From: an uncultured Salinisphaerales bacterium
GTDB lineage: Bacteria > Pseudomonadota > Gammaproteobacteria > Nevskiales > CAJXLF01
Assembly (NCBI GenBank): GCA_913055805.1
Contig: CAJXLF010000002.1
Coordinates: forward strand, 62,001-126,000
Direction of reading: 5' to 3'
Length of the DNA stretch: 64,000 bases
Part shown: positions 41,477 through 64,000 of the stretch, piece by piece
How the letters are laid out: every line of letters starts with the position of its first letter
Position numbering within the stretch: position 1 is the stretch's first letter
Notes under the pieces: generated by a model
Database searches by the model: none
Told to the model about the DNA's origin: nothing
What the model saw: only the letters and a program-made list of their open reading frames with translations
Made by a program: the position numbers and the translations under genes

Positions 41477-43783
41477 CTAACGCCAGCCCGGATCCGCCCC
41501 GGCACGCCATAACCGCATTGACTGCTGACGTTGTTTGCGAATATTCCGGATACCCTCGTCTGCCGAGATATCCAGCTGCACAGCCCCATGCTGCGCCGTG
41601 GAAAGCCACTGGCTCTTGCGGTAGCGCTCCAGAACCTCGGACTTCGGAAATGACCACCGATTGCGCCAGCCAGCGGAAAAAATGGCGACCTGGGGGGAAA
41701 CGGCCTCGACAAAACCCCTGGATGAGGAACTGGCGCTGCCGTGATGGGGCACAACCAGGACATCGGCATCCAGCGCTTCACCCTGGTTAGCCAGCAGATG
41801 CCTTTCAACCGGCATTTCTATATCGCCTGTAAGCAGAATGCTGAACTCGCCCACCGTCACCTTCAGTACGCAAGAACCGTTATTCCCGCTCCAGTGACGA
41901 TCATCCGGATGCAGAAATTCAAACTGCGCGGCATCCCATTGCCATTTCATGCCCCTGCGGCACTGTGATCGTTCGTCAAACCCATAGCGCTTTTCCACCT
42001 TCATCGCCTGCTCTATCGCCGGCATGCCGCCACGATGGTCGAGGTCGGTATGACTTTGCACCAGCACGTTCACGCTACCGTGCCCACGCGAGCGCAAATA
42101 CGGCACGACGACCATGGCACCGGCATCAAAACCGCCGTCATAGGCCGGTCCGGCGTCAAAGACCAGTACGTGATTCACAGTTTCCACGACCGCGGACAGA
42201 CCCTGGCCGACATCCAGTATCGTCAAGCGCAAATTACCTGTCTGCGGCGTCGATGCCGCTGGCATAACCAGAGGAATGCAAAACACCAGCCCCAGATACC
42301 TGGCTGGCCAGCCACGGGGCGCAGTCAGCCAGAGCAAGCCCAGAAACCCGGAAATCACTGCCCAGACGGAAACAGCACCCACAGCAAACACCGGTGATGC
42401 CAGCTGTGCAAACTGCTCCAGCCCCACCCAGACCCAGGTCAGGACATCCGCACAGAAAGTTAACAGCAGCGTCGCGGCGGCCGGCCAGAATCCCGCTAGA
42501 ACGGTGCCTAGCAGAATGACCGGCACCAGACAGGTAAAGAGTGGAATCAGCAGCAGGTTGGCCAATGGCGCGACCCAGGAGGCTTCGCCGAACCAGAACA
42601 AGGTCAACGGTACCAGCGTCAAACCCAGCAAAGCTTGCAGACGCAGATAAACGCTAATCCTGCCCGGCAACTGCCAACGGTTCCTCAGGAGGTAGAAGAT
42701 CCACCCTACTGCAGCGAAAGACAGCCAGAAGCCGGCGCTGCCTGCCGCAAAAGGGTCCAGCAACAGTACCAGCAACATTGCCAGTGCCAGCAGATGTGCA
42801 GGTGAAATACGCCGGCCACGAAACAGCGCAATGTAAAAAGCCAGCAACATGATGAGCGCCCTTTGCGCAGGCAGCTCAAAACCCGATAACAGCGCGTAGA
42901 CAATAGCGCCGGCGGCACTGAAAACTATGGCGGCCCGGGGAGCCGGCAAACGGCGCATAAGCCCGGGGCTGGCGCGCCAGCCCCATGCACCCAGGAAATA
43001 CAGCCAGCCTGCGGCAATACCGATATGCAAACCGGAGATCGCCATGAGATGACTGGTTCCGGTATGACGCAGGAGCGTCCAGTCCGCCTGGCTGAACCGG
43101 TCGCGGATGCCGAGTGACAGGGCCAGCACCTGAGCTGTTCTGGCATGACCGTCCAGAAGCTGTGTCACCTGCTCGGCCCAGCGTTGACGCAGCTTCGAAA
43201 GGCGGCCACTCATAAGCGGCGTTGTGGCACAGGGTTCGGCTTTTCGCACATAGGCCGTGGCGATAATTCGGCTCGCAAACAACCAGCCTTCATAATCAAA
43301 TCCGCCTGGATTCACGCTGCCCCTTGGCGCGCGCATGCGCAGCCGTAAACGCCAGCACTGGCCGGCCTCGAGCCTTGCCTGACCACGGTACCAACTGACC
43401 CGTATCAGACCATCAGGCTGTTCCGCGTTAAAAAGGAAACGCCAGTGACCATCGCGCCGCTGCGGCATGTCGGCCACCACGCCCTGCACCCAGACATCCT
43501 CAGCATGCCGTTCGGCGGGCCACCGGGCATCCAGCAGATGACTCGCTACCAGACTCAGCCAGAGCGCGCCCAGCCAGAAGGCCAGGCACAGCCCTGCTGC
43601 AGCGGGTTGCCTGCGCCAGATCAGATAAATAGCAACAAGCGTCGCGGGCCAGATCGGCCAGGCAGGCAATGCGGGAGAAACATACACAGCCAGCAGGCCA
43701 AGCAAAAACGCCAGGCCATGCAGGGGATGAAAACCGTTCAGGAAACGGGATCTGTGCGCAGCCTTCCGTCTTCCAGTGTCCAT
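41477..43783 (-). CDS. comEC: DNA internalisation competence protein ComEC/Rec2
   Basis: A 768-residue inner-membrane protein proposed to form the channel through which transformed DNA strands enter. It has a hydrophobic N-terminal cluster, an OB/ComEC middle ([18 protein letters not shown] near 245, the competence domain) and a C-terminal metallo-beta-lactamase domain with [13 protein letters not shown] near 565 and [10 protein letters not shown]. Start ATG 43783 makes a 46-base overlap with lolD; a later start would cut the N-terminal helix. It is 91 bases upstream of msbA. Presence does not show natural competence by itself. Confidence 0.94.
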
Positions 43784-44427
43784 ACCCGGTGCATTCGCCG
43801 GGCCAGCCCCGTATCGTGTGTAACGACAACAAAGCTGGCTCCGCTTTCTTCTTGTAGCTCTAACATCAGTTCGAATATTTGTTCGGCGTTCTTGCGATCA
43901 AGATTACCGGTTGGCTCATCGGCCAGCACACAGGCGGGCCGGGTTACCAGGGCGCGCGCCACCGCCGCCCGTTGCCGCTCACCGCCCGATAGCTCACCCG
44001 GCTTGTGCTCAAGCCGGGCGCCCAGCCCCACCCTGTTCAGCATGGCGCTAGCGACCTCATAGGCCTGGTCGGGCTTCTGACGCCTGATCAGCAACGGCAT
44101 GGCGACATTTTCCACTGCCGTAAATTCAGGCAGCAGATGATGAAACTGGTAAATGAAACCCAGATTGTGGTTGCGCAGCCGCCCCCGCTCTGCCTCGCCG
44201 AGCGCAGACATGCTGCGTCCAAGTATGCGCACCTCTCCTGCACTGGGTCTGTCCAGGCCACCGAGAATATGCAGGAGCGTACTTTTGCCTGAGCCGGAAG
44301 CACCCACAATAGCAACCGATTCGGCACGGGAGACTGTGAAATCAACGTCCTGCAAAACAGCCACAGGCGCTGGTCCCTCGTGATAGGTGCGCGCCAGTTG
44401 CCGGCATTCCAGTACCCAATCACTCAT
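43738..44427 (-). CDS. lolD: Lipoprotein-releasing ATPase LolD
   Basis: A 229-residue ABC ATPase of LolCDE, which lifts lipoproteins from the inner membrane for LolA. Start ATG 44427 ([18 protein letters not shown]). Walker [21 protein letters not shown] at about 40, Q-loop [21 protein letters not shown], signature [15 protein letters not shown] and [11 protein letters not shown] all present. It overlaps lolC/E by eight bases and comEC by 46. Confidence 0.96.
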
Positions 44428-45670
44428 AACGCAAGGCCTCCGCCGGCTGAACCCTGGCGGCACGCCAGGCGGGGTACAGTGTGGAGAGCAGGCTCAGCAA
44501 CAGGGACATGCAGCCGATCTTGAAGACATCTAGGTAATCCACTTCACCCTTGAGTTCATTGATGTAGTAAACGTCCGCGGACAACAGGTCCTGACCCACC
44601 AGCGATTCCACGAAGGGCACAATGTTTTCCACATTGATAGCCAGCAAGACGCCGCCGATCACGCCGAAAAACGTACCGACCACGCCAATCAGGCTGCCCT
44701 GCACAATGAACATCGACAGAATACTGCCAGGACTGCTTCCCAGGGTACGCAAAATGGCGATATCCGCCTGCTTGTCGGTCACCACCATCACCAGGGTGGA
44801 AACAATATTGAAGGCCGCCACGGCCACGATCAGGCTAAGGATAATAAACATGACCGTTTTTTCGGTGCGTATGGCACGAAAGAAGTTGGCATGCTGACGT
44901 GTCCAGTCGGTGACATGGATTTCCGGCGGCAGCTCGGCTGACAGACGGCGGCTGACATTGCGCGCCTGATATACGTCATCCAGCTTGAAACGCACCCCCG
45001 TTACCGTATCGCCCATGCGATAAAGCGCTGCCGCATCTTCCAGGTGCACGATCACCAGTCCGCGGTCGTACTCGTACATACCCACTTCAAAGACGCCAGC
45101 GAGGGTAAAGCGCCGGAAACGTGGTAACAGCCCCGCCGGCGACACGGTGGCCTGGGGAATCATCAAATCGATCTTGTCGCCCGGCTGCACTCCCAGAGAG
45201 CGTGCCAGTTCCGCGCCCAGCAGTATCCTGAATTCACCGGGCACCAGCTGATCCAGCCCGCCGTCAATGAAATGCTCACCGACATCCGACACCCTGGCTT
45301 CGTAATCCGGCAAAACACCACGAATCATGGTGCCGCTGAGACGTTTGCCCAGTTTGAGCATGCCTTCGCCCTGAATGTAGGGCGCGGCGGCCAGCACATG
45401 CTTGTCCAACTGCTGCCCTTCCTCGAGCACGTCCTGCCAGTTACTCAGCGGGGCAGCGAAACCCGAGACTGAAACATGCGAGGCCATGCCGAGAATACGG
45501 GTGCGTAACTCCTTTTCGAAACCGTTCATGACAGACAGAACAGTAATGAGCGCCGTGACGCCCAGGGCTATGCCTGCCATCGAAATCAGGGAGATAAAGG
45601 AGATGAAATGGTTACGTCGTTTGGCCCGTGTGTAACGGAGCCCGACAAACAATTCGAATGGTTGAAACAT
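44420..45670 (-). CDS. Lipoprotein-releasing permease LolC/LolE
   Basis: A 416-residue permease with four transmembrane helices and a large periplasmic MacB-like domain. The start ATG at 45670 gives [66 protein letters not shown], which is the LolC/LolE N-terminus; C-terminal helices span about residues 270-400. Only one permease gene is here, so either LolE/LolC is elsewhere or, as in many species, a single protein (LolF) serves as a homodimer. The sequence does not decide between them. Confidence 0.93.
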
Positions 45671-45799
45671 GGGCGGCATTAAAGCATAGACAGCTTTTTC
45701 TGTCCCATCTGTCTATACTGAGGACAAGGGCCATGGAAGCGCTTAGCTAAAGAAATCTTGCGAAATTGCCGATGAAAAAAACAGTTGCGGGAGACAAGC

Positions 45800-46018
45800 A
45801 TGAATCCGATTGTCATTAATTTTATGTATGCTGCCGGCGGTGGTCTGCTGGCCATATTTTTCAGCTGGTTCGCAGTCAAGGTATTCAGTCACTTCATGCC
45901 TTTCAGCGTGTCCGAACAGCTGGGAAAGGGCAATCTGGCTGTAGGCGTAACGGTGATGGGTATTTTTATCGGCGTAGGCATCGCCATGGGCCTGGTCATA
46001 GGACTGGGTCTCAACTAG
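45800..46018 (+). CDS. DUF350 family small membrane protein
   Basis: A 72-residue protein starting at ATG 45800. Two hydrophobic helices (YAAGGGLLAIFFSWFAVKVF, about 10-29, and VGVTVMGIFIGVGIAMGLVIGLG, about 48-70) with SEQLGKGNLAVGVTV between them, the DUF350/UPF0719 mark. Function unknown; relatives occur near polyamine- or potassium-linked membrane proteins in other genomes. Eight bases before the first transglycosylase gene. Confidence 0.8.
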   Translation: MNPIVINFMYAAGGGLLAIFFSWFAVKVFSHFMPFSVSEQLGKGNLAVGVTVMGIFIGVGIAMGLVIGLGLN

Positions 46019-46026
46019 GCTGCCAC

Positions 46027-46659
46027 ATGTCTGCCCGCACGCTTTGCTGCCTGTTACTCCTGGGCCTGGCGCTGGGGCAGGTTCAGGCGGAGGAACTGCC
46101 TCCGGTAGACAGCGAACACTGGACGGATGAATACGATGCCTACTTTCGTAAATACAGCAAGCGCTACTTCGGCGCTCATTTTGACTGGCGCTGGTTCAAG
46201 GCCCAGGCCATCGCCGAATCGCATCTCAAACCCGCGGCGGAGAGTCCTGTAGGCGCCCAGGGCATCATGCAGATCATGCCCGGCACCTTTTACGAGATAA
46301 AAGAGGCCAATCCTCACTTCATGTCGATCAAGGAGCCCCGCTGGAACATTGCGGCTGGCATTTACTACGACCGTATGCTGTTCAGAAAATGGCAGAGACA
46401 GCTTTCCGAACAGGAACGGCTGCTTATGGCCTTTGCCAGTTACAATGCCGGCCTGGGAAGCATTCGCAAGGCCTACAAACGCTCGCCTGAGCCCATACGT
46501 GGATGGCAGGATGTAGCCGCTCACGCGCCGAAAGAAACACGGGGCTATGTGTCCAGAATTCAAATCCTCAGAGGCAAGGACTTGCGCAGGAAGGGACCGG
46601 CAAGCAAGGGAATCTGGCAGACCCTGAGCGACAAATTGGTCGGAGATGAAGCCTCCTGA
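46027..46659 (+). CDS. Lytic transglycosylase, SLT domain (copy 1)
   Basis: A 210-residue secreted transglycosylase. A signal peptide (ends VQA-EE near residue 21) is followed by the SLT domain: YDAYFRKYSKRYFGAHFDWRWFKAQAIAESHLKPAAESPVGAQGIMQIMPGTF, with catalytic Glu in AIAES near residue 63, then RWNIAAGIYYDRMLFRKW and LMAFASYNAGLGSIRKA. It should cleave glycan strands with formation of 1,6-anhydro ends. It is a close paralog of the gene at 47430 and faces a Sel1-SH3 gene; together these form a repeated module. Confidence 0.92.
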   Translation: MSARTLCCLLLLGLALGQVQAEELPPVDSEHWTDEYDAYFRKYSKRYFGAHFDWRWFKAQAIAESHLKPAAESPVGAQGIMQIMPGTFYEIKEANPHFMSIKEPRWNIAAGIYYDRMLFRKWQRQLSEQERLLMAFASYNAGLGSIRKAYKRSPEPIRGWQDVAAHAPKETRGYVSRIQILRGKDLRRKGPASKGIWQTLSDKLVGDEAS

Positions 46660-46664
46660 GGCTT
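46649..46664 (+). terminator. Hairpin at the end of transglycosylase copy 1
   Basis: AAGCCT (46649-46654) pairs with AGGCTT (46659-46664) around CCTG, overlapping the TGA stop of the transglycosylase; TATTCC follows. It lies between two converging genes. The U-run is weak. Confidence 0.35.
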
Positions 46665-47329
46665 TATTCCTCTTGCGTCACCCCGACCAGATCACCGTGC
46701 ACCCAGACTATTTTCTTCCTCGCCAGATACACCACATGCGCCCATTGATTGCGAACCGCAATCAAGCTTAGTTTTTCACCTTTTCTGACAGTGTCCACCA
46801 CCCTGGCGTTACTGCCGGGTTTGATTCGAAGATTAGCCTTGTCCGTACGGGTATAAGCGGCCACTCCGAGGGATTCCGGCTTCCGTTCAAGGATACGTTC
46901 AATACGTTTCTGTAATTCCTCATCCGGCTCATCGAGGAAAACACTCAACAACAGCCGCGCATCCTCCTCACCGGATTCCACCGCCTCCAGCAGATAGTGC
47001 GCTGCCCTGGCAGGATTCTTGTCCACCCCAACCCCGCCCTCGCGGTAAAGCATCGCCAGGGCTATCTGGGCATCCACGATCTTCTTGCCCGCTGCGCGTG
47101 CCCACCAGTTGGCCGCCTTTTCATCGTTCAGGGCGAGACCATAGCCATTGTGGTACATCCATCCGAGCTGATACTGCGCTTCGGAGTTACCCTTCTTCGC
47201 CAACGGTACAAGCTGGCAATAAGCTTCCGCGTAATCGCCGCGCATGATGGCCTGCTGCGCCGACTGCATATCGTCGGCCCAAACGGGTGCTGACACCAGC
47301 AAGCAGAGAAACAGACTTACTCTGAACAT
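46664..47329 (-). CDS. Sel1-repeat and SH3-domain exported protein (copy 1)
   Basis: A 221-residue exported protein starting at ATG 47329 (MFRVSLFLCLLVSAPVWA-DD signal). Residues about 20-145 hold Sel1-like (TPR-like) repeats: QYQLGWMYHNGYGLALNDEKAANWWARAA, then DAQIALAMLYREGGVGVDKNPARAAHYLLEA. The C-terminal 60 residues are an SH3-type domain (KANLRIKPGSNARVVDTVRKGEKLSLIAVRNQWAHVVYL), usually binding cell wall or protein. It converges on transglycosylase copy 1 (gap of four bases). A paralog is at 47999. The partner of the repeats is unknown; recruitment or control of the transglycosylase is a guess. Confidence 0.85.
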   Translation of the reverse strand: MFRVSLFLCLLVSAPVWADDMQSAQQAIMRGDYAEAYCQLVPLAKKGNSEAQYQLGWMYHNGYGLALNDEKAANWWARAAGKKIVDAQIALAMLYREGGVGVDKNPARAAHYLLEAVESGEEDARLLLSVFLDEPDEELQKRIERILERKPESLGVAAYTRTDKANLRIKPGSNARVVDTVRKGEKLSLIAVRNQWAHVVYLARKKIVWVHGDLVGVTQEE

Positions 47330-47429
47330 GAACACATCATAGAAACAGCTTTGTAAATTACGCAATACATCCTGCAAGAGATGTTCCACTGGAGGATAAT
47401 CAGGGCATCACAAACCTGACATTGACTCA

Positions 47430-48026
47430 ATGCGCGCAACCCTCACTGCCGTTTTATTGCTTGTCGCAGGGCTGAGCCTGCAGGCCTTGCCTGCAGCGGC
47501 CAGCGAACTGAACGAGCATGCGATTGCCGGCTATGACGAGTATTTCCGCAAATACAGCCGCCGCTACTTTGGCCCCTACTTTGACTGGCGCTGGTTCAAG
47601 GCTCAGGCCATCGCCGAATCCGGCCTGGACCCCCAGGCACGTAGCCATATGGGTGCGCTGGGCTTGATGCAGATCCTGCCTTCGACCTTCGATGAAATCC
47701 GGCATAGCCGGCCTCACTTCAGTGATATCGAAGACCCACGCTGGAACATCGCCGCGGGTATCTATTACTGCCGCCTGCTCTATGAAAAATGGGCGGCATA
47801 CCCGCAGGAAGAACGCCTGGCGTTCACCTTCGCCAGTTATAACGCCGGCTATAACCGGGTGTTACAGGCGACCAGTTCCCAGTCGGCCGACACTCCGGAC
47901 TGGGTAGCGGCAAGCTCGCAGTTACCGGGGCAAACACGGGCCTACGTGGCGCGCATACGTGAAATCATGGGTATCGAGCCACTGCTGGCCCATGAGCGTC
48001 AGGGCGGACTCACCGCGGAGGAGTGA
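47430..48026 (+). CDS. Lytic transglycosylase, SLT domain (copy 2)
   Basis: A 198-residue paralog of the protein at 46027. Signal peptide to about residue 25 (LQALPAAAS), then YDEYFRKYSRRYFGPYFDWRWFKAQAIAESGLDPQARSHMGALGLMQILPSTF, with catalytic Glu in AIAES near residue 70, RWNIAAGIYYCRLLYEKW and FTFASYNAGYNRVL. The SLT core is nearly the same as in copy 1, while the tail diverges. Its 3' end overlaps the converging Sel1-SH3 gene by 28 bases, closer than in copy 1. Confidence 0.92.
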   Translation: MRATLTAVLLLVAGLSLQALPAAASELNEHAIAGYDEYFRKYSRRYFGPYFDWRWFKAQAIAESGLDPQARSHMGALGLMQILPSTFDEIRHSRPHFSDIEDPRWNIAAGIYYCRLLYEKWAAYPQEERLAFTFASYNAGYNRVLQATSSQSADTPDWVAASSQLPGQTRAYVARIREIMGIEPLLAHERQGGLTAEE

Positions 48027-48688
48027 ATCCAGGCAAGCTTGCGTTTGGCCGGCAACCCGACGTAGAGCCAGTCACCCTGCCTGGCGATGCTGACCATTTG
48101 CGTACCCTTGATCATGGTAGCCACCACCTCTGCGCTATGGCGCGGAAACTCGCGGGCGCTGGCGTACTGAATAGCGACTTCGGTCATGTCGCCCAGTACT
48201 TCAGGTTCACTACGCAGAATACGGCGGATGCGCCGGATGGCAGGAATGTCACCGCGCAATAACAAGGCTGCAATATTCAGCCGCGCATCTTCTTCTCCCG
48301 CCGCTGCTGCCAGCAGAAAGTATTCCACCGCCCTGTCTGTATCCGCGTCCACCTTAACGCCGCCCTTTTGATACAGCAGACCCAGGGCCATCAGTGCTTC
48401 TATATGATCTTCCTGTGCCGCCGTCTCCCACCACTGAACGGCTTTCAGGTCATCGGCTTGCAACCCCTTGCCTTCGTGATACATCCAGCCCAGGTAATAA
48501 GCGGCTTCTGTATCACCGTCCTCCGCCAGTCTGCGCATCAGAAAATAGGCTTCGGCGGGGTCTCCGGCGTGCATCGCCCGATTGGCCATTTCGAAATCGC
48601 TCTCCGCCCCGGCCTTAAGGGGCACGACCAGCACTGGCAGAATCAGAATAAGAAGCAACTTCCCTCGAGACATGATCATTTTCGGCAT
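47999..48688 (-). CDS. Sel1-repeat and SH3-like exported protein (copy 2)
   Basis: A 229-residue paralog of the protein at 46664. Start at 48688; ATG 48673 is an alternative that still leaves the signal (LLLILILPVLVVPLKAGAES). Sel1 repeats: AAYYLGWMYHEGKGLQADDLKAVQWWETAAQEDHIEALMALGLLYQKGG; then VDADTDRAVEYFLLAAAAGEEDARLNIAALLL. The C-terminal domain (ASAREFPRHSAEVVATMIKGTQMVSIARQGDWLYVGLPAKRKLAWIH) is the same SH3-like fold, more diverged. Overlaps transglycosylase copy 2 at the tail. Confidence 0.84.
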   Translation of the reverse strand: MPKMIMSRGKLLLILILPVLVVPLKAGAESDFEMANRAMHAGDPAEAYFLMRRLAEDGDTEAAYYLGWMYHEGKGLQADDLKAVQWWETAAQEDHIEALMALGLLYQKGGVKVDADTDRAVEYFLLAAAAGEEDARLNIAALLLRGDIPAIRRIRRILRSEPEVLGDMTEVAIQYASAREFPRHSAEVVATMIKGTQMVSIARQGDWLYVGLPAKRKLAWIHSSAVSPP

Positions 48689-48800
48689 GACGCAATCATA
48701 GGCTGCTTTGCCTTCTACGAGTATCCCCGGATGACTTATCCGCCGCCGGAACTGATGCTATAGTGATCCTTGTATTCAACTGGATTAAAGCTTCCGCATC

Positions 48801-49190
48801 ATGTTTAAAATCAGAACCTTGCAGATTCGAACTCGCGCAGCTGCAAAGACAGTTTGCGGCTTGATACTGCCCCTGATTTTGCTGCTGCCGGCCACGCCCG
48901 CAGCGGCTGATGTACTCAGCATTCCCGACGAGAATCCTGCCATGGAAGCAACGCCGGCTCCTGAGCTGCCCCTGCGCGGGAGCACAATGGCCGCTGTGCG
49001 CGCACGCTTTGGCGAACCTAAATCCATAAGCGGCCCGGTAGGAGGTGATCATCCGCAACGGCCGCCGATTACGCGCTGGGAATACGACAGCTTTTCAGTC
49101 TTCTTTGAACATGACCATGTGGTGCATAGTGTCATCCCGGACAAACCCAAACCGATTTATCACAAAGAAGAACTGAACTCCGGTTACTGA
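48801..49190 (+). CDS. Small exported protein, SmpA/BamE-like pattern
   Basis: A 129-residue protein with a long signal region (to about residue 36, TPAAA-DV) and a C-terminal domain: LPLRGSTMAAVRARFGEPKSISGPVGGDHPQRPPITRWEYDSFSVFFEHDHVVHSVIPDKP. The order G-x-T-x3-V-x4-G-x-P, then a tryptophan-tyrosine pair and a strand followed by VVHSV, is like the SmpA/BamE fold of other small envelope proteins, though it is not BamE itself. It is nine bases before aguA, on the same strand. Function unknown. Confidence 0.65.
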   Translation: MFKIRTLQIRTRAAAKTVCGLILPLILLLPATPAAADVLSIPDENPAMEATPAPELPLRGSTMAAVRARFGEPKSISGPVGGDHPQRPPITRWEYDSFSVFFEHDHVVHSVIPDKPKPIYHKEELNSGY

Positions 49191-49197
49191 AGACCCC

Positions 49198-50280
49198 ATG
49201 CAAAGCGCACGACTTCTGCCCGCCGAATGGGCGCCGCAGGCTGCTGTCCTGCTTACCTGGCCACATGATGCCGGTGACTGGGGCACACACCTGCCGGAAG
49301 TTGAAGATAACTTCTTCACGCTGGCCCGCACGATTGCGCGTTTCCAACCCCTGCTCATCAATTGCCGGGATCAATTCCTGGCCAACCGGGTTCGGCAACA
49401 ATTACTGGACGATGGTGTAGAAGCTGAAAAGCTGCACATGACTGTCGCCCCCAGCAATGATGTATGGGCACGTGATCACGGCCCGATCACAGTGCTCGAC
49501 AATGGCCAGCCCCGCCTGTTCAACTTTTGCTTCAATGGCTGGGGAGGCAAGTTCGAGGCCGGCCTGGATAACCGCATCAGCGAGCACTTGCATGCACAGG
49601 GCTGCTTCGGCAGCAGCCCGATCGAAACTGTCGACTGGGTGCTTGAAGGTGGGGCCATAGAAACCGACGGTCACGGCGTGATGTTAACCACCACGCATTG
49701 CCTGCCTTTGCCGACCCGTAATCCCGGCAAAAGTCTTGAAGAATTCGAGCAGTTATTTCACAGGATCTTCGGCATACAGACCACGCACTGGCTGAATCAT
49801 GGCCACCTGACTGGCGATGACACCGATGGCCATATAGACACCCTGGCCCGGTTTGCCAGTACGGACAGCATTGTCTATCAAGGCTGCAATGATCCACAGG
49901 ATGAGGATTTCCCGGCGCTTGACGCCATGCGTGAGGAACTCGAGGCCCTGAGGCAGCCAGACGGCAAGCCCTACCGGCTACATGCCCTGCCCCTGCCCGC
50001 GCCCATACACGATGAAGACGGTCAAAGGCTGCCAGCGAGTTATGCGAATTTCCTGATCATCAACGGCGCCGTGCTGTTGCCGGTTTACAACGACCCTGCC
50101 GATACGCAGGCAACCGAAACGCTTCGCCGCTGCTTTCCCGATCGGGAAATCATTTGCGTGGATTGCCGCGCGCTCATCCGGCAGTACGGCAGCCTGCACT
50201 GCGTGACCATGCAGATACCGGCAGGCGTCACAGTCTCGTCACCCGCAAACCCTGCCCTGACGGCCGCGACTCAGGCATAA
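49198..50280 (+). CDS. aguA: Agmatine deiminase
   Basis: A 360-residue penta-propeller enzyme that turns agmatine into N-carbamoylputrescine and ammonia. The family marks are PAEWAPQAAVLLTWPHDAGDWG, NDVWARDHGPITV with the conserved Trp-Ala-Arg-Asp, FNFCFNGWGGKFEAGLDN, WLNHGHLTGDDTDGHIDTLARF, and the catalytic Cys in YGSLHCVTMQIP near residue 330. Eight bases after the small exported gene and 58 before aguB, the next enzyme, so aguA-aguB form the agmatine route to putrescine. Confidence 0.96.
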   Translation: MQSARLLPAEWAPQAAVLLTWPHDAGDWGTHLPEVEDNFFTLARTIARFQPLLINCRDQFLANRVRQQLLDDGVEAEKLHMTVAPSNDVWARDHGPITVLDNGQPRLFNFCFNGWGGKFEAGLDNRISEHLHAQGCFGSSPIETVDWVLEGGAIETDGHGVMLTTTHCLPLPTRNPGKSLEEFEQLFHRIFGIQTTHWLNHGHLTGDDTDGHIDTLARFASTDSIVYQGCNDPQDEDFPALDAMREELEALRQPDGKPYRLHALPLPAPIHDEDGQRLPASYANFLIINGAVLLPVYNDPADTQATETLRRCFPDREIICVDCRALIRQYGSLHCVTMQIPAGVTVSSPANPALTAATQA

Positions 50281-50338
50281 TGCGCCCGTTTCCGCCATGT
50301 CGTGGCGGCCATGCTCCTACCCGCATGTCTGAGATGCC

Positions 50339-51226
50339 ATGAGTCAGCGCCGTTTGAAAGTTGCCCTCCTTCAGCACGCCTGCAGCGACGAGCCTGCTGT
50401 CAATCGCAAGCATATTGAAGCGCTTGTGCGCGAGGCTGCAGGCAACGGCGCGCAACTCATTCTTCTGCAGGAACTGCATAACAGCCGTTACTTCTGTCAG
50501 CACGAAGACAGCCATCTTTTTGATCTGGCCGAACCGATTCCGGGCCCTTCTACAGAATGGCTGGCCGCACTGGCTGGTGAACTCGGCTGCGTCATTGTCG
50601 GCTCCCTGTTCGAGAAGCGGGCGCCCGGCATCTATCACAATACGGCCGTAGTGCTGGACAGTGACGGCAGCCTGGCCGGCCGTTACCGCAAAATGCACAT
50701 TCCCGATGATCCCGGCTATTACGAAAAGTTCTATTTCACACCGGGGGATCTGGGTTTCGAACCCATTGATACTTCAGTGGGACGCCTGGGCGTACTGGTC
50801 TGCTGGGATCAGTGGTTTCCCGAAGGGGCCCGCCTGATGAGCCTGGCCGGCGCCGAATTGCTGCTCTACCCCACCGCCATAGGCTGGGATTCGCGTGATA
50901 CGCAAGATGAGCAACAGCGCCAGCTGCAGGCCTGGCAGTTGAGTCAGCGCGCGCATGCGGTACACAACGGCCTGCCGGTCCTCAGCTGTAATCGTACGGG
51001 ACTGGAGCCTGACCCCAGCGGCGCCAGCCCCGGCGCACATTTCTGGGGCCATAGTTTTGTATGCGGACCCCAGGGCGAACTGCTGGCCGAAGCGGGCGAG
51101 GATGCCGGGATCCTGTATGCCGAAATCAGCCTCGAGCGTGCTGAGCAGGTACGTCGCATCTGGCCTTATCTGCGGGATCGCCGCATTGATGCCTACGCTG
51201 AAATTCTGAAACGCTTCCGTGACTGA
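50339..51226 (+). CDS. aguB: N-carbamoylputrescine amidase
   Basis: A 295-residue nitrilase-superfamily enzyme that splits N-carbamoylputrescine into putrescine, ammonia and carbon dioxide. The catalytic triad segments are LLQELHNSRYF (Glu), RKMHIPDDPGYYEKFYFTPGD (Lys) and VLVCWDQWFPEGARLM (Cys, near residue 155). Completes the route begun by aguA. The stop overlaps the GTG start of mfd by eight bases. Confidence 0.96.
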   Translation: MSQRRLKVALLQHACSDEPAVNRKHIEALVREAAGNGAQLILLQELHNSRYFCQHEDSHLFDLAEPIPGPSTEWLAALAGELGCVIVGSLFEKRAPGIYHNTAVVLDSDGSLAGRYRKMHIPDDPGYYEKFYFTPGDLGFEPIDTSVGRLGVLVCWDQWFPEGARLMSLAGAELLLYPTAIGWDSRDTQDEQQRQLQAWQLSQRAHAVHNGLPVLSCNRTGLEPDPSGASPGAHFWGHSFVCGPQGELLAEAGEDAGILYAEISLERAEQVRRIWPYLRDRRIDAYAEILKRFRD

Positions 51227-54200
51227 CTTCGATCCACTGCACCCGCCGCTACCCGCGGCGGAGTCCTCCGCTATTGTCTGGCCATCTCTCACCGCCGGCG
51301 TCATGCCGCTGGCCATAGCATCGGCGGCAGGCCTGGCCAACCGTCCCTTACTGGTTATCGCCCCGGATGAACACAGCGCCTATCGGCTGGAACAGGAACT
51401 GCAGTTCTTCGTAGACGACAAAGACAGCCTGCCGGTCCTGCATTTCCCCGATTGGGAGACGCTACCCTACGATCTGCTGTCCCCGCACCAGGATATAATC
51501 TCCTCGCGCCTGGCCATGCTTTACCACTTGCCCAGACTGGCACGGGGTATTGTGGTCGTGGCGGCGGATACATTGCTGCAGCGGCTGCCACCGACCCACT
51601 ATGTCAATGCGCATACCTTCCTGCTGAAAGCGGGCGACCGCCTTGACCCCCAGATGCTGCGCAATCAACTGGAGGCCTCGGGTTACAGTCATGTCAGTGA
51701 GGTTCACAGCCATGGCGAGTTCGCGCAGCGAGGCGGCTTGCTCGACCTGTTCCCCATGGGCAGTGACCAGGCCTACCGCATTGAGCTGTTCGATAACGAA
51801 ATCGAATCCCTGCGCTTTATCGACACGGAAAGCCAGCGCTCGGTCGAAAAAATCACCGAAATCCGCATCCTGCCCGCGCGCGAGTTCCCGCTGGACAAGA
51901 CCGGCATCGAGAGTTTTCGCGCCCGTTACCGTGCTCGCTTCACCGGCGACCTGAGCCGCCACCGTATCTACCAGGATGTGAGTCACGGCCTGGCCCCACC
52001 CGGCATCGAAGCCTTTCTGCCGCTTTTTTATGAGGATACCAACAGCCTTTTTGACTACCTGCCTGACAACAGCATCATGGTGGAAGCCGGTGACATCCAC
52101 TCTGCGCTGAAGGTGGCTGATGATCAGATCCGGCACCGCCATGAGCAGTACGGAAGTGATATCGAACGTCCCATTCTGACGCCGGAGGAAGCCTTTCTGC
52201 CCCTGCAGGAAATCGAGCAGATACTGGTCTCCCGGCGCGATATCCAGATACCGGCCGGGCTGGATGATGCTGCAGAGCAACTGCCCTCGGATCTGTCAGT
52301 GGACCAGCTGACCACTCAATTGAAGACGTTCCTGGATACTTATCAAGGGCGGGTCCTGCTCACGGCGGATTCGGCGGGCCGGCGTGAACTGCTCCTTGAA
52401 CGCCTGCGGCCAGCCGGCCTGCGGCCCGGAATATTCGATCACTGGACCGACTTTCTCAGCGCCGATGTGGCCCTGGGCATCTGCATCGCCCCCCTGGAAA
52501 AAGCCCTCGTGCTGAGCGCGCCCGCATTGGCGGTCCTGCCGGAAGCCCGCCTGCTGGGCGCGCGCGCGCCGGCGCAGCGCAAACGCCGCGCAACCCGTGA
52601 CGCTGCGGCGGTGCTGCGCGACCTGACCGATCTCACCATTGGCGCTCCGATTGTGCACCAGGATCATGGCATTGGCCGCTATACCGGTCTTCAGCATCTC
52701 AGTATTCACGGTCAGCAAACCGAGTTTCTGACTCTGGAATACGGCGACGGCGCCAAACTCTATGTCCCGGTCTCCTCACTGCATCTGGTACACCGTTATA
52801 CCGGTGCCGAGGGCGATGCTGTGCCCCTGCACCGGCTGGGGTCTGACCAATGGGAAAAAGCCCGCAAGCGCGCAGCCAAACGGGCCCGCGATGCCGCCGC
52901 CGAACTCCTGGAAATCCAGGCGCGCCGCGCCGCCCATGCGGGCCAGGCCATGCCGGTACCGGCCGAAGATTACCAGCGATTCTGTGATCAGTTTCCCTTC
53001 GAAGAAACACCGGATCAGGCCCAGGCCATTGAGCAGGTCATTGCGGACCTCTCCGAGCCAACGCCAGCCGATCGCGTGGTCTGCGGCGACGTGGGTTTCG
53101 GCAAGACTGAAGTGGCCATGCGGGCTGCGTTCGTCGCTGCGCAGAATGGCCGCCAGGTGGCCGTACTTGTTCCCACCACGCTGCTGGCGCAGCAGCACTA
53201 TCAGAATTTTGCCGACCGTTTTGCCGACTGGCCGGTACGTGTGGGGTCTTTATCACGCCTGGGAGGCGCCAAGGCCCAGCAACAGACGCTGGATGACATC
53301 GCCAGCGGCAAGCTGGACATTGTCATCGGCACGCATCGCCTTCTGCAGCAGGACATTCGCTTCAAGGATCTCGGACTGGTCATTGTTGATGAGGAGCATC
53401 GTTTCGGTGTACGCCACAAGGAGCAACTGAAAAAACTGCGCGCCAATGTCGATCTGCTGACGCTCACCGCCACTCCCATACCCCGCACGCTAAACATGAG
53501 CCTGTCGGGATTGCGCGATCTGTCCATCATAGCCACCCCTCCAGTGGAACGCCTTGCCATCCAGACTCAGGTGGTTGAATGGAACGGCACCCTGGTACGT
53601 GAAGCGTGTTTGCGTGAAATCAAACGTGGCGGCCAGGTCTACTTCCTGCACAACCGGGTCGAGGACATCGAACGTATCGCCCGGGAACTGGGTGAACTGG
53701 TGCCGGAAGCGTCAGTCCGCATTGCGCACGGCCAGATGCGCGAACGGGAACTGGAACATGTGATGCTGGATTTCTATCACCAGCGTTTCAATATCCTGGT
53801 TTGCACCACCATTGTGGAAAGCGGTATCGATGTACCCAGCGCCAATACCATTCTCATCAACCGCGCCGACCGTCTGGGTCTGGCCCAGCTGCACCAGTTG
53901 CGTGGCCGCGTGGGCCGCTCCCATCACCGCGCCTATGCCTACCTGATCGTGCCGGACCGCAAGGCCCTCACCAAGGACGCCCGACAGAGACTGGAAGCCA
54001 TCGAATCTCTGGGCGAGCTGGGGGCCGGTTTCATGCTGGCCACACAGGACATGGAAATCCGCGGCGCCGGCGAATTGCTGGGTGAAGAGCAGAGTGGCCA
54101 GATTGAAGCCGTGGGTATCACGTTGTACACGCAACTGCTGGCAAGGGCCAAACGCGCCGTGGCCAGCGGGGAGTTGCCGGACGATGACCTCACAGATGAC

Positions 54201-54638
54201 TCCGGCTGCGAGGTGGACCTGGGCCTGACCGCGCTGTTGCCCGAAGCCTATGTGCCGGATATTCACAGCCGTCTGGTGCTCTACAAGCGGATCAGCAGCG
54301 CCGAAGATGAAGAGGCCCTGCGCGACCTGCAGGTGGAGCTGATTGATCGTTTCGGCCTGTTACCGGCCGAAACAGAGCAACTCTTCAACCTTACCCGCTT
54401 ACGCCTCAGGGCACAGCCGCTTGGCATACGCAAGCTGGAGGCCGGAGACAGCGGCGGACGCCTGATCTTCACTTCCCGCCCGAATATCGACCCGGCCAGT
54501 CTGATCAAGCTGATTCAGGGCGAGCCGGCCGTCTACAAGCTGGCGGGGACCGAAAAACTGCACTTCAACACCCCGTTGGGCGAAACGGAACAACGTTACC
54601 GTTTCGTCGAGACGCTACTGCAGAAACTTGCCGCCTGA
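51219..54638 (+). CDS. mfd: Transcription-repair coupling factor Mfd
   Basis: A 1139-residue DNA translocase that removes stalled RNA polymerase and recruits UvrA. Start GTG 51219 within aguB. Features: UvrB-like domains (about 1-350), RNA-polymerase-interacting domain near 470-545, RecG-like motor with CGDVGFGKTEVAMRAAFVAAQ and VIVDEEHRFGVRHKEQLKKLRANVDLLTLTATPIPRTLNMSL, TRG motif RADRLGLAQLHQLRGRVGRSHHRAYAYL, and C-terminal D7 domain (about 990-1139). Length is normal. Confidence 0.98.
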   Translation: MTDFDPLHPPLPAAESSAIVWPSLTAGVMPLAIASAAGLANRPLLVIAPDEHSAYRLEQELQFFVDDKDSLPVLHFPDWETLPYDLLSPHQDIISSRLAMLYHLPRLARGIVVVAADTLLQRLPPTHYVNAHTFLLKAGDRLDPQMLRNQLEASGYSHVSEVHSHGEFAQRGGLLDLFPMGSDQAYRIELFDNEIESLRFIDTESQRSVEKITEIRILPAREFPLDKTGIESFRARYRARFTGDLSRHRIYQDVSHGLAPPGIEAFLPLFYEDTNSLFDYLPDNSIMVEAGDIHSALKVADDQIRHRHEQYGSDIERPILTPEEAFLPLQEIEQILVSRRDIQIPAGLDDAAEQLPSDLSVDQLTTQLKTFLDTYQGRVLLTADSAGRRELLLERLRPAGLRPGIFDHWTDFLSADVALGICIAPLEKALVLSAPALAVLPEARLLGARAPAQRKRRATRDAAAVLRDLTDLTIGAPIVHQDHGIGRYTGLQHLSIHGQQTEFLTLEYGDGAKLYVPVSSLHLVHRYTGAEGDAVPLHRLGSDQWEKARKRAAKRARDAAAELLEIQARRAAHAGQAMPVPAEDYQRFCDQFPFEETPDQAQAIEQVIADLSEPTPADRVVCGDVGFGKTEVAMRAAFVAAQNGRQVAVLVPTTLLAQQHYQNFADRFADWPVRVGSLSRLGGAKAQQQTLDDIASGKLDIVIGTHRLLQQDIRFKDLGLVIVDEEHRFGVRHKEQLKKLRANVDLLTLTATPIPRTLNMSLSGLRDLSIIATPPVERLAIQTQVVEWNGTLVREACLREIKRGGQVYFLHNRVEDIERIARELGELVPEASVRIAHGQMRERELEHVMLDFYHQRFNILVCTTIVESGIDVPSANTILINRADRLGLAQLHQLRGRVGRSHHRAYAYLIVPDRKALTKDARQRLEAIESLGELGAGFMLATQDMEIRGAGELLGEEQSGQIEAVGITLYTQLLARAKRAVASGELPDDDLTDDSGCEVDLGLTALLPEAYVPDIHSRLVLYKRISSAEDEEALRDLQVELIDRFGLLPAETEQLFNLTRLRLRAQPLGIRKLEAGDSGGRLIFTSRPNIDPASLIKLIQGEPAVYKLAGTEKLHFNTPLGETEQRYRFVETLLQKLAA

Positions 54639-61835: not shown

Positions 61836-64000
61836 ATGCAAAATTGGAGCCTGCAAAAAAGGATCTACCTGCTCGCAGTGGTGCCCGCAATCCTCATCAC
61901 TGCACTGGCAGTCGGTGTCTCTACCGCGCGTCAGATTGAACGCCTGAACAGCGACCATCTGGCCTTCGCTTCTGCCCAGAGCAAGCAGATTGCACGGGCA
62001 GGCTACCTGGCGATGCTGACTGACAATGCACGGGAATTACGCCAGATCACCAATTCCGCCCTAGAGGGTGGCGAATTGATTCAGGGCATCGAGATCAAGC
62101 GCGCGGATGGCAATGTCGCCACGCGTGCCTTAGGCTCAGACAGCGGCCAGATCACCTGGGCCAGTCGCATCCTCGGACTGCCTGCCGGGCTGATCGCCGG
62201 TTACAGTCTGGCGGCCGATATCAGCATGAGCATCCCGCCAGAGGGTGAAGGCACCGTTTTCAGTCACTTCGGCACACCGGTAGCCAGCCTTGGCACGGTC
62301 ACACTCTACCTGTCGCAGAATTACCGCAAACAGGAAATCGCCGCCCTGCTCTCCCGCGGCGCACTGTCTTTCCTGCTGCTGGTCGCGCTGATACTCGCCA
62401 TGGCCCTGTTCGCCAGCCACCTGGCGCTACGGCCCATGCGGCGCATCAGTCGCACGATTGACGAACTGGCCCAGGGCAAGACCCCGAGCGGCAATCTCAG
62501 GGAAGATGCCGAAATGGGCAATGTCGCGCGTGGCCTGAGCGCCATTGGCAAGCAACTCAGCGACAGCAAGGAAGCTGTGGGACAGCTGCAGCACCTCAAC
62601 AAGGAGCTGGCCCGCGCGCAGCGCATAGCAGAACGATCAGCCCGCAGCAGCAGTTCGTTACTCGCCGGCATGAGTCATGAACTGCGCACGCCACTAACCG
62701 CCATACTCAGTCACGCCGACATGCTTGAAGCCACCGGCCTGACGGCCGAGCAGCAGGACATGCTGCAGACCATCCGCCGCTCAGGCAAGAACCTGCTCAA
62801 CCTCATTAACGATGTGATCGACTGGAGCGGCATCGAAGCCGGCAAGATTCCCATCAACGAAGTCGGCTTCGACCTTTATGAATGTGTTGAAGATACCGTC
62901 ACGCTGCTGGCCCCGCTGGCCTACGAGAAAGATCTCGAACTGACGCAGATTATTTACCGCGACGTGCCCACGCGCCTGCGCGGCGACCCGGTACGACTGC
63001 AGCAGATATTGACCAACCTGATCACCAACGGCATCAAGTTTACCGGCCAGGGCAGCGTTACCGTGCGTGTCATGCTGGAAAACGAGGAGGCCGACAAGAC
63101 TGCCCTGCGCTTCTCCGTCAGCGACACCGGCATGGGCATTGGCGTGGAGGAACAGCAAAAGCTGTTCAAGGAATTCAGCCAGATCACCACCGAGGAAATG
63201 CGCCAGCTCAATGCCCGTGGCAGTGGCCTGGGTCTGGCCATCAGCAAACGCCTGGTCGGACTCATGGGCGGCGATATCGAAGTCGACAGCGTACAGGGAC
63301 AGGGATCCAAATTCAGTTTTGTTTTGCCTTTCAACAAGAGCCGCCAGGGCGAAGCCGCGCCCATGCCCTGGATCGGGCTTTCCGGCCGACGCGTAAGGAT
63401 CATCGATAACAACAATATCGTGCGCACCGCGCTTGCCCATCATATGGAAACCTGGGGCATGACTATCGTCCAGCAAACGGGATTGTCGGCCATCCGGCAG
63501 AGCGGCATGCCAACCCCCGCCCACGACATCGTGATTCTTGGCCTGCTGAGCCATGACGTGGACAATCCCGAAGTGCACGACTTCCTGTCCAAGCACAAGC
63601 AGGCAGGGGTCCCCGTGCTCACTCTTGTGGCCTCAACACACGAAGATATACACCGGCGGCTGCGTGAAGACGGTGCTGCAGCCTGTCTGCCCAAAGTGAC
63701 CAACAGGCTCACGCTATACCGGGTTCTATGCCGACTGGCGGGCGTTTCGTCACATTCCGATGAACGCAAACTGCAGATCGAGGACCTGGAAGTCCTGGTT
63801 GCCGATGATGTCGAGGCCAATCGCCGCTATCTGAAAGCCCTGCTCGAACAGGTCGGGGCGCAACCCACCCTGGCCAGCGGCGGACAGGAAAGTGTAAAGC
63901 TGTGGCAGGAGCACGGCTTTCCACTGGTCCTGCTGGATGTACGCATGCCTGACCTCGACGGCGCAGCCGTTGCACGCCGCATACGCTCCCTGGAAGTCCC
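61836..64000 (+). CDS. GacS/BarA-type hybrid sensor kinase, partial (cut by window edge)
   Basis: From ATG 61836 an open frame of about 721 codons runs off the right edge. It has two membrane helices (about 11-30 and 177-196) around a periplasmic sensor region, a HAMP linker, HisKA with GMSHELRTPL (His281), HATPase N-box LQQILTNLITN near 390, G1 DTGMGIG and G2 GSGLGLAI. A first receiver-like segment (about 520-640) lacks the phospho-Asp; a second, starting LEVLVADDVEANRRYL, has Asp701 in LLDVRMPDLDG. A C-terminal Hpt domain would lie beyond the edge. Its place beside cysM-rlmD matches GacS/BarA loci, where it controls CsrA through small RNAs; that is inference from context. Confidence 0.9.
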   Translation, partial: MQNWSLQKRIYLLAVVPAILITALAVGVSTARQIERLNSDHLAFASAQSKQIARAGYLAMLTDNARELRQITNSALEGGELIQGIEIKRADGNVATRALGSDSGQITWASRILGLPAGLIAGYSLAADISMSIPPEGEGTVFSHFGTPVASLGTVTLYLSQNYRKQEIAALLSRGALSFLLLVALILAMALFASHLALRPMRRISRTIDELAQGKTPSGNLREDAEMGNVARGLSAIGKQLSDSKEAVGQLQHLNKELARAQRIAERSARSSSSLLAGMSHELRTPLTAILSHADMLEATGLTAEQQDMLQTIRRSGKNLLNLINDVIDWSGIEAGKIPINEVGFDLYECVEDTVTLLAPLAYEKDLELTQIIYRDVPTRLRGDPVRLQQILTNLITNGIKFTGQGSVTVRVMLENEEADKTALRFSVSDTGMGIGVEEQQKLFKEFSQITTEEMRQLNARGSGLGLAISKRLVGLMGGDIEVDSVQGQGSKFSFVLPFNKSRQGEAAPMPWIGLSGRRVRIIDNNNIVRTALAHHMETWGMTIVQQTGLSAIRQSGMPTPAHDIVILGLLSHDVDNPEVHDFLSKHKQAGVPVLTLVASTHEDIHRRLREDGAAACLPKVTNRLTLYRVLCRLAGVSSHSDERKLQIEDLEVLVADDVEANRRYLKALLEQVGAQPTLASGGQESVKLWQEHGFPLVLLDVRMPDLDGAAVARRIRSLEV

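Follow-up and report, generated by a model that had tools for sequence, protein, structure and literature searches.

The closest described relatives of the locus presented here are systems in which an exported Sel1-repeat protein is tied to a lytic transglycosylase. IltA of Pseudomonas aeruginosa binds the catalytic domain of MltF and inhibits it in vitro, and this Sel1-type inhibition of a lytic transglycosylase was reported in 2023 as a novel mechanism (PMC10746161). Gcf of Acinetobacter was proposed to be an activator of MltD (PMC6586353). The locus lies in a 64-kb stretch of DNA from an uncultured Salinisphaerales bacterium (positions 62,001 to 126,000 of contig CAJXLF010000002.1), referred to below, at its full length, as the window. 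It contains two genes for stand-alone lytic transglycosylases (SLT1 and SLT2), each convergent with a gene for a protein with Sel1 repeats and an SH3-like domain (Sel1-SH3 A and B), as had been proposed from the letters of the DNA (the original prediction); both the coordinates and the Pfam domains agree with that description, subject to the corrections given below. A 72-amino-acid DUF350-like protein, absent from the original prediction, is encoded by a third member of the block. The pairing of SLT with a convergent Sel1-SH3 gene is real and extends beyond the window. Our favored interpretation, held with modest confidence, is that the block is a cell-wall-hydrolase control module, doubled in tandem, in which the Sel1-SH3 protein probably controls an MltF-like enzyme that stands alone, most likely by restraining it. 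We found no description of this module in the literature searched (open-licence papers).

Co-occurrence of the SLT and Sel1-SH3 families

The class sample comprised 369 genomes, many of them drafts, and only the best candidates per genome were scored. Family-level matches were those with E ≤1.8e-47 for SLT, beyond which the values drop to 2e-26, and with E ≤4.5e-53 for full-length Sel1-SH3, for which the next match was a partial one at 9e-30, aside from a contig-end fragment in G193 (such numbers are our own handles). By these thresholds, the SLT family was present in 32 genomes from 22 taxonomic families and full-length Sel1-SH3 in 22 genomes from 15 families, the second set being nested in the first. 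All 22 Sel1-SH3 genomes and all 28 genomes with the small DUF350-like protein (mini-DUF350) fall inside the 32 SLT genomes, and neither protein was detected at these thresholds in the remaining 337 (Fisher p = 4.6e-28 for SLT and Sel1-SH3, uncorrected for kinship). The original prediction asked for co-occurrence of the pair across gammaproteobacteria, and such co-occurrence was found as a one-way dependence: Sel1-SH3 comes with SLT in 22/22 genomes and never without it (0/337), but SLT also occurs without Sel1-SH3.

The Sel1-SH3 gene adjoins the SLT gene in 14 of the 22 genomes, including G234, where the pair is split by a contig end and a fragment lies at the contig edge. In the other eight (G288, G225, G329, G327, G380, G387, G180, and G292), it is on a separate contig, and the stretches around these unlinked genes (2.4–3.6 kb) hold no SLT. 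The association therefore exceeds shared position. Seven families (f137, f130, f159, f142, f47, f48, and f139) mix members that have both genes with members that have neither; of the four genomes in genus g148, one carries the two genes and the others lack both, completeness being under 90% for two of those three.

Close to the window's own genome, the families are rare. Among this genome and 40 others of the same order, family-level matches to both proteins were found only in the own genome and in G003, which carries a single module with the same gene order (DUF350, SLT, convergent Sel1-SH3). An order-level search around G171 covered four genomes only. In a phylum search of 398 genomes, the window's genome was the only one with family-level matches, and only genomes of the same class were among the matches listed. 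A genome contig scan with one SLT protein, covering 39 stretches, returned no relative. Within the own genome, the next-best match to the SLT proteins is 34% identical (4e-11) and the next-best Sel1 match is 38% identical over 90 residues.

Several unlinked or additional copies have neighborhoods of their own. The unlinked Sel1-SH3 gene adjoins a methylthioinosine-phosphorylase-like gene in G387 and a PrxQ-like gene in G327. In family f146 (L201, L202, and L203), it adjoins a gene that by eye resembles a methylthioinosine/methylthioadenosine phosphorylase or a phosphoribosyltransferase, the L201 neighbor alone having been tested. G193 carries the SLT/Sel1-SH3 module twice, on different contigs (C2 and C16; L108 and L111), perhaps as a second copy, perhaps through redundancy in the metagenome-assembled genome (MAG).

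Gene order around the SLT gene

We also scanned a contig collection and combined the best 80 of 212 SLT relatives with 30 loci from the class search, which gave 110 loci, 96 of them distinct by SLT stretch. At five of these the counts were anchored on SLT fragments; a coordinate check left the flank assignments there unaffected. Judged by their titles, the 80 records are mostly gammaproteobacterial MAGs or animal symbionts (Thiodiazotropha, the Solemya velum symbiont, tubeworm endosymbionts, and Chromatiales); a few carry the labels Desulfobacteraceae, Deltaproteobacteria, or Alphaproteobacteria. Of the 87 distinct loci with sufficient downstream sequence, 26, the window among them, have Sel1-SH3 convergent with SLT within 400 bp, and four more have it on the opposite strand beyond that distance. 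When the two genes are on opposite strands, their stop codons lie between a 34-bp overlap and 90 bp apart in 31 of 36 loci (duplicates included); in the tail-to-tail arrangement, most stops are no more than about 40 bp from each other. The more constant neighbor of SLT is DUF350, found on the same strand within 1.5 kb upstream in 78 of the 92 loci with enough upstream DNA. Two SLT genes in one stretch were seen only in the window among the 96 loci, many of the stretches being just about 2–4 kb long.

Other proteins occupy the position downstream of SLT at some loci. In L137 (5598–6413) and in the same cluster at 14 more loci from Thiodiazotropha and related symbionts, a DUF3530 protein, alpha/beta hydrolase-like (only L137 was tested with Pfam), replaces the convergent Sel1-SH3. 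In L110, L116, L134, L149, L153, L128, L157, L158, and L169, the convergent place is taken by low-complexity proteins whose N termini look signal-like by eye. In L095 (1189–2542; G136), DUF350 and SLT are followed by a co-directional Sel1-only protein of 143 amino acids with no evident signal sequence or SH3 domain. The SLT family is also carried by L165, L178, and L181, from MAGs labelled Desulfobacteraceae or Deltaproteobacteria; together with L177, these three loci make up one group of the SLT tree.

Domain composition and structural relatives

Both SLT copies score far over the curated cut-off of the Pfam SLT model (PF01464; 64.6 and 66.5 versus 21.3 bits). The glutamate and serine of the ES motif, which we take to be the SLT catalytic-glutamate motif, are invariant in 31/31 and 53/53 alignment rows, both window copies among them. 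The predicted structure of SLT2 has a confident core (mean predicted local distance difference test score [pLDDT], 85.5), and its highest template modeling (TM) scores by query length in Foldseek were to the MltF catalytic domain (0.64–0.71), against 0.60–0.62 for Slt70 and 0.52–0.65 for MltE. The NCBIfam MltF model is the best one for both copies, yet they reach only 57.4 and 54.7 bits against its cut-off of 354, and Pfam shows SLT only: the SBP_bac_3 sensor domain was not found in either protein. A full MltF, with SBP_bac_3 and SLT, is encoded elsewhere in the own genome. Judged by this domain content and these scores, SLT1 and SLT2 are not members of the MltF family.

Pfam Sel1 is over the cut-off in both Sel1-SH3 A and B, and SH3_3 is over it in A (31.2 versus 27 bits) and slightly under it in B (25.9 versus 27 bits; 1.1e-05). 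The AlphaFold model of A (pLDDT, 91.5) consists of helical repeats followed by an all-beta SH3-like domain. Its best structure matches are solved Sel1 proteins; bacterial SH3 domains match weakly and lower down (E about 0.003). SH3-like domains of this type are frequent in wall-binding proteins.

We considered whether Sel1-SH3 could be IltA itself and rejected this, given the extra SH3-like domain, the different neighborhood, and a similarity limited to generic Sel1 repeats. The IltA-like candidate L222 has only a Sel1 domain by Pfam. The gene neighborhood of iltA is hemL–iltA–miaB. By eye, IltA-like candidates lie near hemL-like and miaB-like open reading frames (a text pattern for HemL was unmatched, and identity with IltA is unproven); the neighborhood here (lolC/E, DUF350, SLT) is a different one. 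An IltA-like profile run on 360 genomes of the class gave 16 matches at 1e-20, one of them full-length (G201, a member of the profile). G201 had no family-level SLT or Sel1-SH3 match, and none of the 360 genomes had both the IltA-like and the module families. PADLOC gave no support for a role in anti-phage defense: the sole match among six proteins was that of one Sel1 protein to PtuA (E = 0.0071).

The mini-DUF350 protein scores 30.7 bits with Pfam DUF350 (cut-off, 26), spanning positions 7–65 of the 133-position profile, and is 60% identical to the protein in the same place in G003. Its own profile matched 28 of the 369 class genomes at ≤1.3e-30, all of them with SLT, and nothing else down to 1e-8. 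Four of the 32 SLT carriers (G073, G328, G292, and G403) do not have it.

The doubled block in the window

The five genes of the block are listed in Table 1. Signal-like N termini were judged by eye in the SLT and Sel1-SH3 proteins. The original prediction had both pairs overlapping; this holds for pair 2, while the genes of pair 1 are separated by a 4-bp gap.

Table 1. Genes of the doubled SLT/Sel1-SH3 block in the window
Feature	Position	Strand	Remark
DUF350-like small membrane protein, 72 amino acids	45800–46018	+	Directly upstream of SLT1
SLT1, stand-alone lytic transglycosylase, copy 1	46027–46659	+	Pfam SLT, 7.6e-18, 64.6 bits
Sel1-SH3 protein A, copy 1	46664–47329	−	In-frame upstream start possible, to 47389
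SLT2, stand-alone lytic transglycosylase, copy 2	47430–48026	+	Pfam SLT, 2e-18, 66.5 bits
Sel1-SH3 protein B, copy 2	47999–48688	−	Shares 28 bp with SLT2 at its 3' end

The block is flanked on the left by the minus-strand genes lolC/E, lolD, and comEC, and on the right by a gene for a 129-amino-acid protein, then by aguA, aguB, and mfd. The 129-amino-acid protein (48801–49190, plus strand), between the module and aguA, begins with a signal-like sequence and matches neither Pfam nor NCBIfam models. A scan for promoters and terminators gave 0 promoter-like sites (2.1 expected) and 7 terminator-like sites (3.1 expected), none of which was used.

Origin of the tandem

The two copies are in register with a spacing of 1,400 bp, and ungapped DNA repeats in the SLT core are 70–72% identical. 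At the protein level, SLT1 and SLT2 share just 50% identity over 182 columns, so the SLT cores are not "nearly alike," as first thought; the companion statement that the Sel1-SH3 proteins have diverged more was borne out (42% identity between A and B). With these identities, a recent whole-unit duplication is not supported, and the two copies are, by the extent of their divergence, judged to be old.

SLT1 groups near G003 and L141 in the SLT tree (support, 96/68), and SLT2 is unplaced; this tree held five fragment rows (L114_685, L117_231, L120_4683, L121_1268, and L151_5568), which were removed from the concatenated tree. In the Sel1-SH3 tree, A and B of the window come together (91/72), with a long-branch warning. 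In the free concatenated tree, module 1 goes with G003 and L141 (88/37), and a tree constrained to have the two modules as sisters is as good (approximately unbiased [AU] test, p = 0.51); module 1 with G003 alone is likewise not rejected (p = 0.352). Duplication of the unit as a whole, which the original prediction concluded from the conserved gene order, is plausible but not established, as the concatenated tree neither backs nor rejects the modules as sisters. Possible origins of the tandem are an old tandem duplication and the capture of a second module.

Interpretation and alternatives

We read the module as an enzyme and its regulator because its two kinds of part are those of the precedents, both gene order and occurrence link them, and the partner has an SH3-like domain in addition. 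The SLT protein would be a secreted MltF-type catalytic domain without the MltF sensor and would cleave the glycan strands of peptidoglycan; its dedicated periplasmic partner would be the product of the convergent Sel1-SH3 gene. The Sel1 superhelix would bind the SLT catalytic domain, as IltA does with that of MltF, the SH3-like domain would bind peptidoglycan, and the enzyme would thereby be restrained or freed depending on place or wall state, with mini-DUF350 as a putative inner-membrane partner. The data themselves establish the sequences, the domains, the predicted folds, the nested co-occurrence within the sample, and a gene order that recurs; physical interaction, inhibition over activation, peptidoglycan binding, and copy-specific pairing are what we infer. 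The enzyme-control idea of the original prediction fits the precedent of a Sel1 protein that inhibits an SLT-type enzyme (PMC10746161), and by this analogy inhibition would be the likeliest direction of the effect, but it has to accommodate a dependence that runs one way. An SLT enzyme without the MltF sensor and a partner with a wall-type domain further suggest that sensing may have moved to the partner. A bolder version of this reading, which we put forward only tentatively, sees a portable module of three parts for wall remodelling: a separate Sel1-SH3 regulator that reads peptidoglycan, together with mini-DUF350, would stand in for the built-in sensor of MltF, and the doubling here would have given two enzyme–regulator pairs that might be mutually specific.

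A number of observations weigh against control by a Sel1-type inhibitor of an MltF-like enzyme. On the enzyme side, Slt70 ranks first by Foldseek E-value for SLT2 and also by PDB sequence profile (52 versus 40 bits). On the partner side, the likeness to IltA-like proteins is confined to generic Sel1 repeats (27% identity over 92 columns; hhalign probability, 98.4%), and in the two genomes compared another Sel1 protein beats the IltA-like one on the Sel1-SH3 profile (66 and 64 versus 54 bits). This profile was built solely from SLT-linked members and could favor linked finds. The original prediction would be weakened if the two genes were found apart in most relatives, and for the SLT gene this is partly the case: Sel1-SH3 is absent from 10 of the 32 SLT genomes, and only the 26 of 87 distinct loci counted above have it convergent within 400 bp. 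Because of these ten genomes, together with one member of family f139 that has SLT alone, the enzyme is evidently not always in need of the partner. IltA is described as having three Sel1 repeats and nothing more, with no SH3 domain, and iltA, mltF, and liiA are unlinked in Pseudomonas (PMC10746161), in contrast to the tail-to-tail Sel1-SH3 and SLT genes with a DUF350 gene here. Finally, if Gcf is an activator, Sel1 proteins might activate rather than inhibit (PMC6586353).

Sel1-SH3 might instead be a scaffold that brings SLT to wall sites or complexes, like NlpI, without on/off switching. We regard this as rather unlikely, even though the anatomy is similar, with helical repeats and here an SH3-like domain in addition, and the co-occurrence fits equally well. 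In E. coli, NlpI has lytic transglycosylases among its binding partners and acts as a scaffold for several hydrolases, but it is described as an outer-membrane lipoprotein (PMC7049810), whereas Sel1-SH3 looks soluble and secreted, with a signal judged by eye, and the nearest published Sel1–SLT case that we found is an inhibitor (PMC10746161).

If SLT activity depended on Sel1-SH3, the partner would be an activator, as proposed for Gcf and MltD, where loss of either gcf or mltD prevented giant cells from forming and losing both genes was no more severe than losing mltD (PMC6586353). The fact that Sel1-SH3 never occurs without SLT in our sample agrees with this; however, the enzymes of the 10/32 SLT genomes that have no Sel1-SH3 would have to function alone, and the Sel1–SLT case studied biochemically is one of inhibition (PMC10746161), so that we consider activation quite improbable.

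The presence of the genes is patchy and their flanking genes vary by lineage, as would also be expected of passengers that travel as a block with no joint function. This explanation is very unlikely in our judgment, as Sel1-SH3 is on another contig in 8/22 genomes and still found only with SLT, and seven families mix both-gene and neither-gene members. Lytic transglycosylases can be toxins and a Sel1-like immunity protein has been solved (PDB 5jjo, PA5088; weak sequence and fold matches, E about 0.003), but an effector–immunity pair, with SLT as an exported antibacterial toxin and Sel1-SH3 as periplasmic immunity protein, is hardly credible with SLT single-copy in 29/32 carriers, 10/32 carriers lacking the partner, and six tested neighbors within 41477–54638 (comEC, lolD, lolC/E, aguA, aguB, and mfd) that are all housekeeping genes, no genome-wide search for secretion genes having been made.

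Comparison with known systems

The association of the two families is real and recurring, and control of the enzyme by its Sel1-SH3 partner is a plausible, testable mechanism; it would be a variant of a type of control that was described only recently. If it is true, Sel1-type control has a dedicated, often gene-linked form with an added SH3-like domain in many little-studied gammaproteobacteria. With two families seen only alongside a third, uncharacterized genes become partners that can be tested, and the doubled module offers a natural and direct test of pair specificity.

NlpI is not known to have an SH3 domain. As a helical-repeat envelope protein of E. coli that binds peptidoglycan hydrolases, it resembles Sel1-SH3, but it is anchored in the outer membrane and has many partners (PMC7049810). 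Gcf is closer in being an exported Sel1 protein genetically linked to a lytic transglycosylase; it differs as a proposed activator, and MltD belongs to another enzyme family (PMC6586353). Members of the YjfL/DUF350 family are described as having four or eight transmembrane segments and lying in PspA/polyamine operons (PMC11237479); the 72-amino-acid protein of the window is over the Pfam cut-off for this family, but its match covers roughly half the profile, and its gene is linked to SLT. MltF shares the catalytic SLT domain with the window enzymes, gives SLT2 its highest TM-scores (with Slt70 first by E-value), and supplies their best NCBIfam model, though far under its cut-off; it differs by its N-terminal SBP_bac_3 sensor domain. 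The nearest counterpart is the IltA–MltF(–LiiA) system of P. aeruginosa, which likewise combines a periplasmic Sel1-repeat protein with an MltF-type catalytic SLT domain (PMC10746161). Like IltA, Sel1-SH3 appears to be a secreted Sel1-repeat protein, with Sel1 over the cut-off and a signal by eye, and by analogy the module may work like the IltA–MltF pair.

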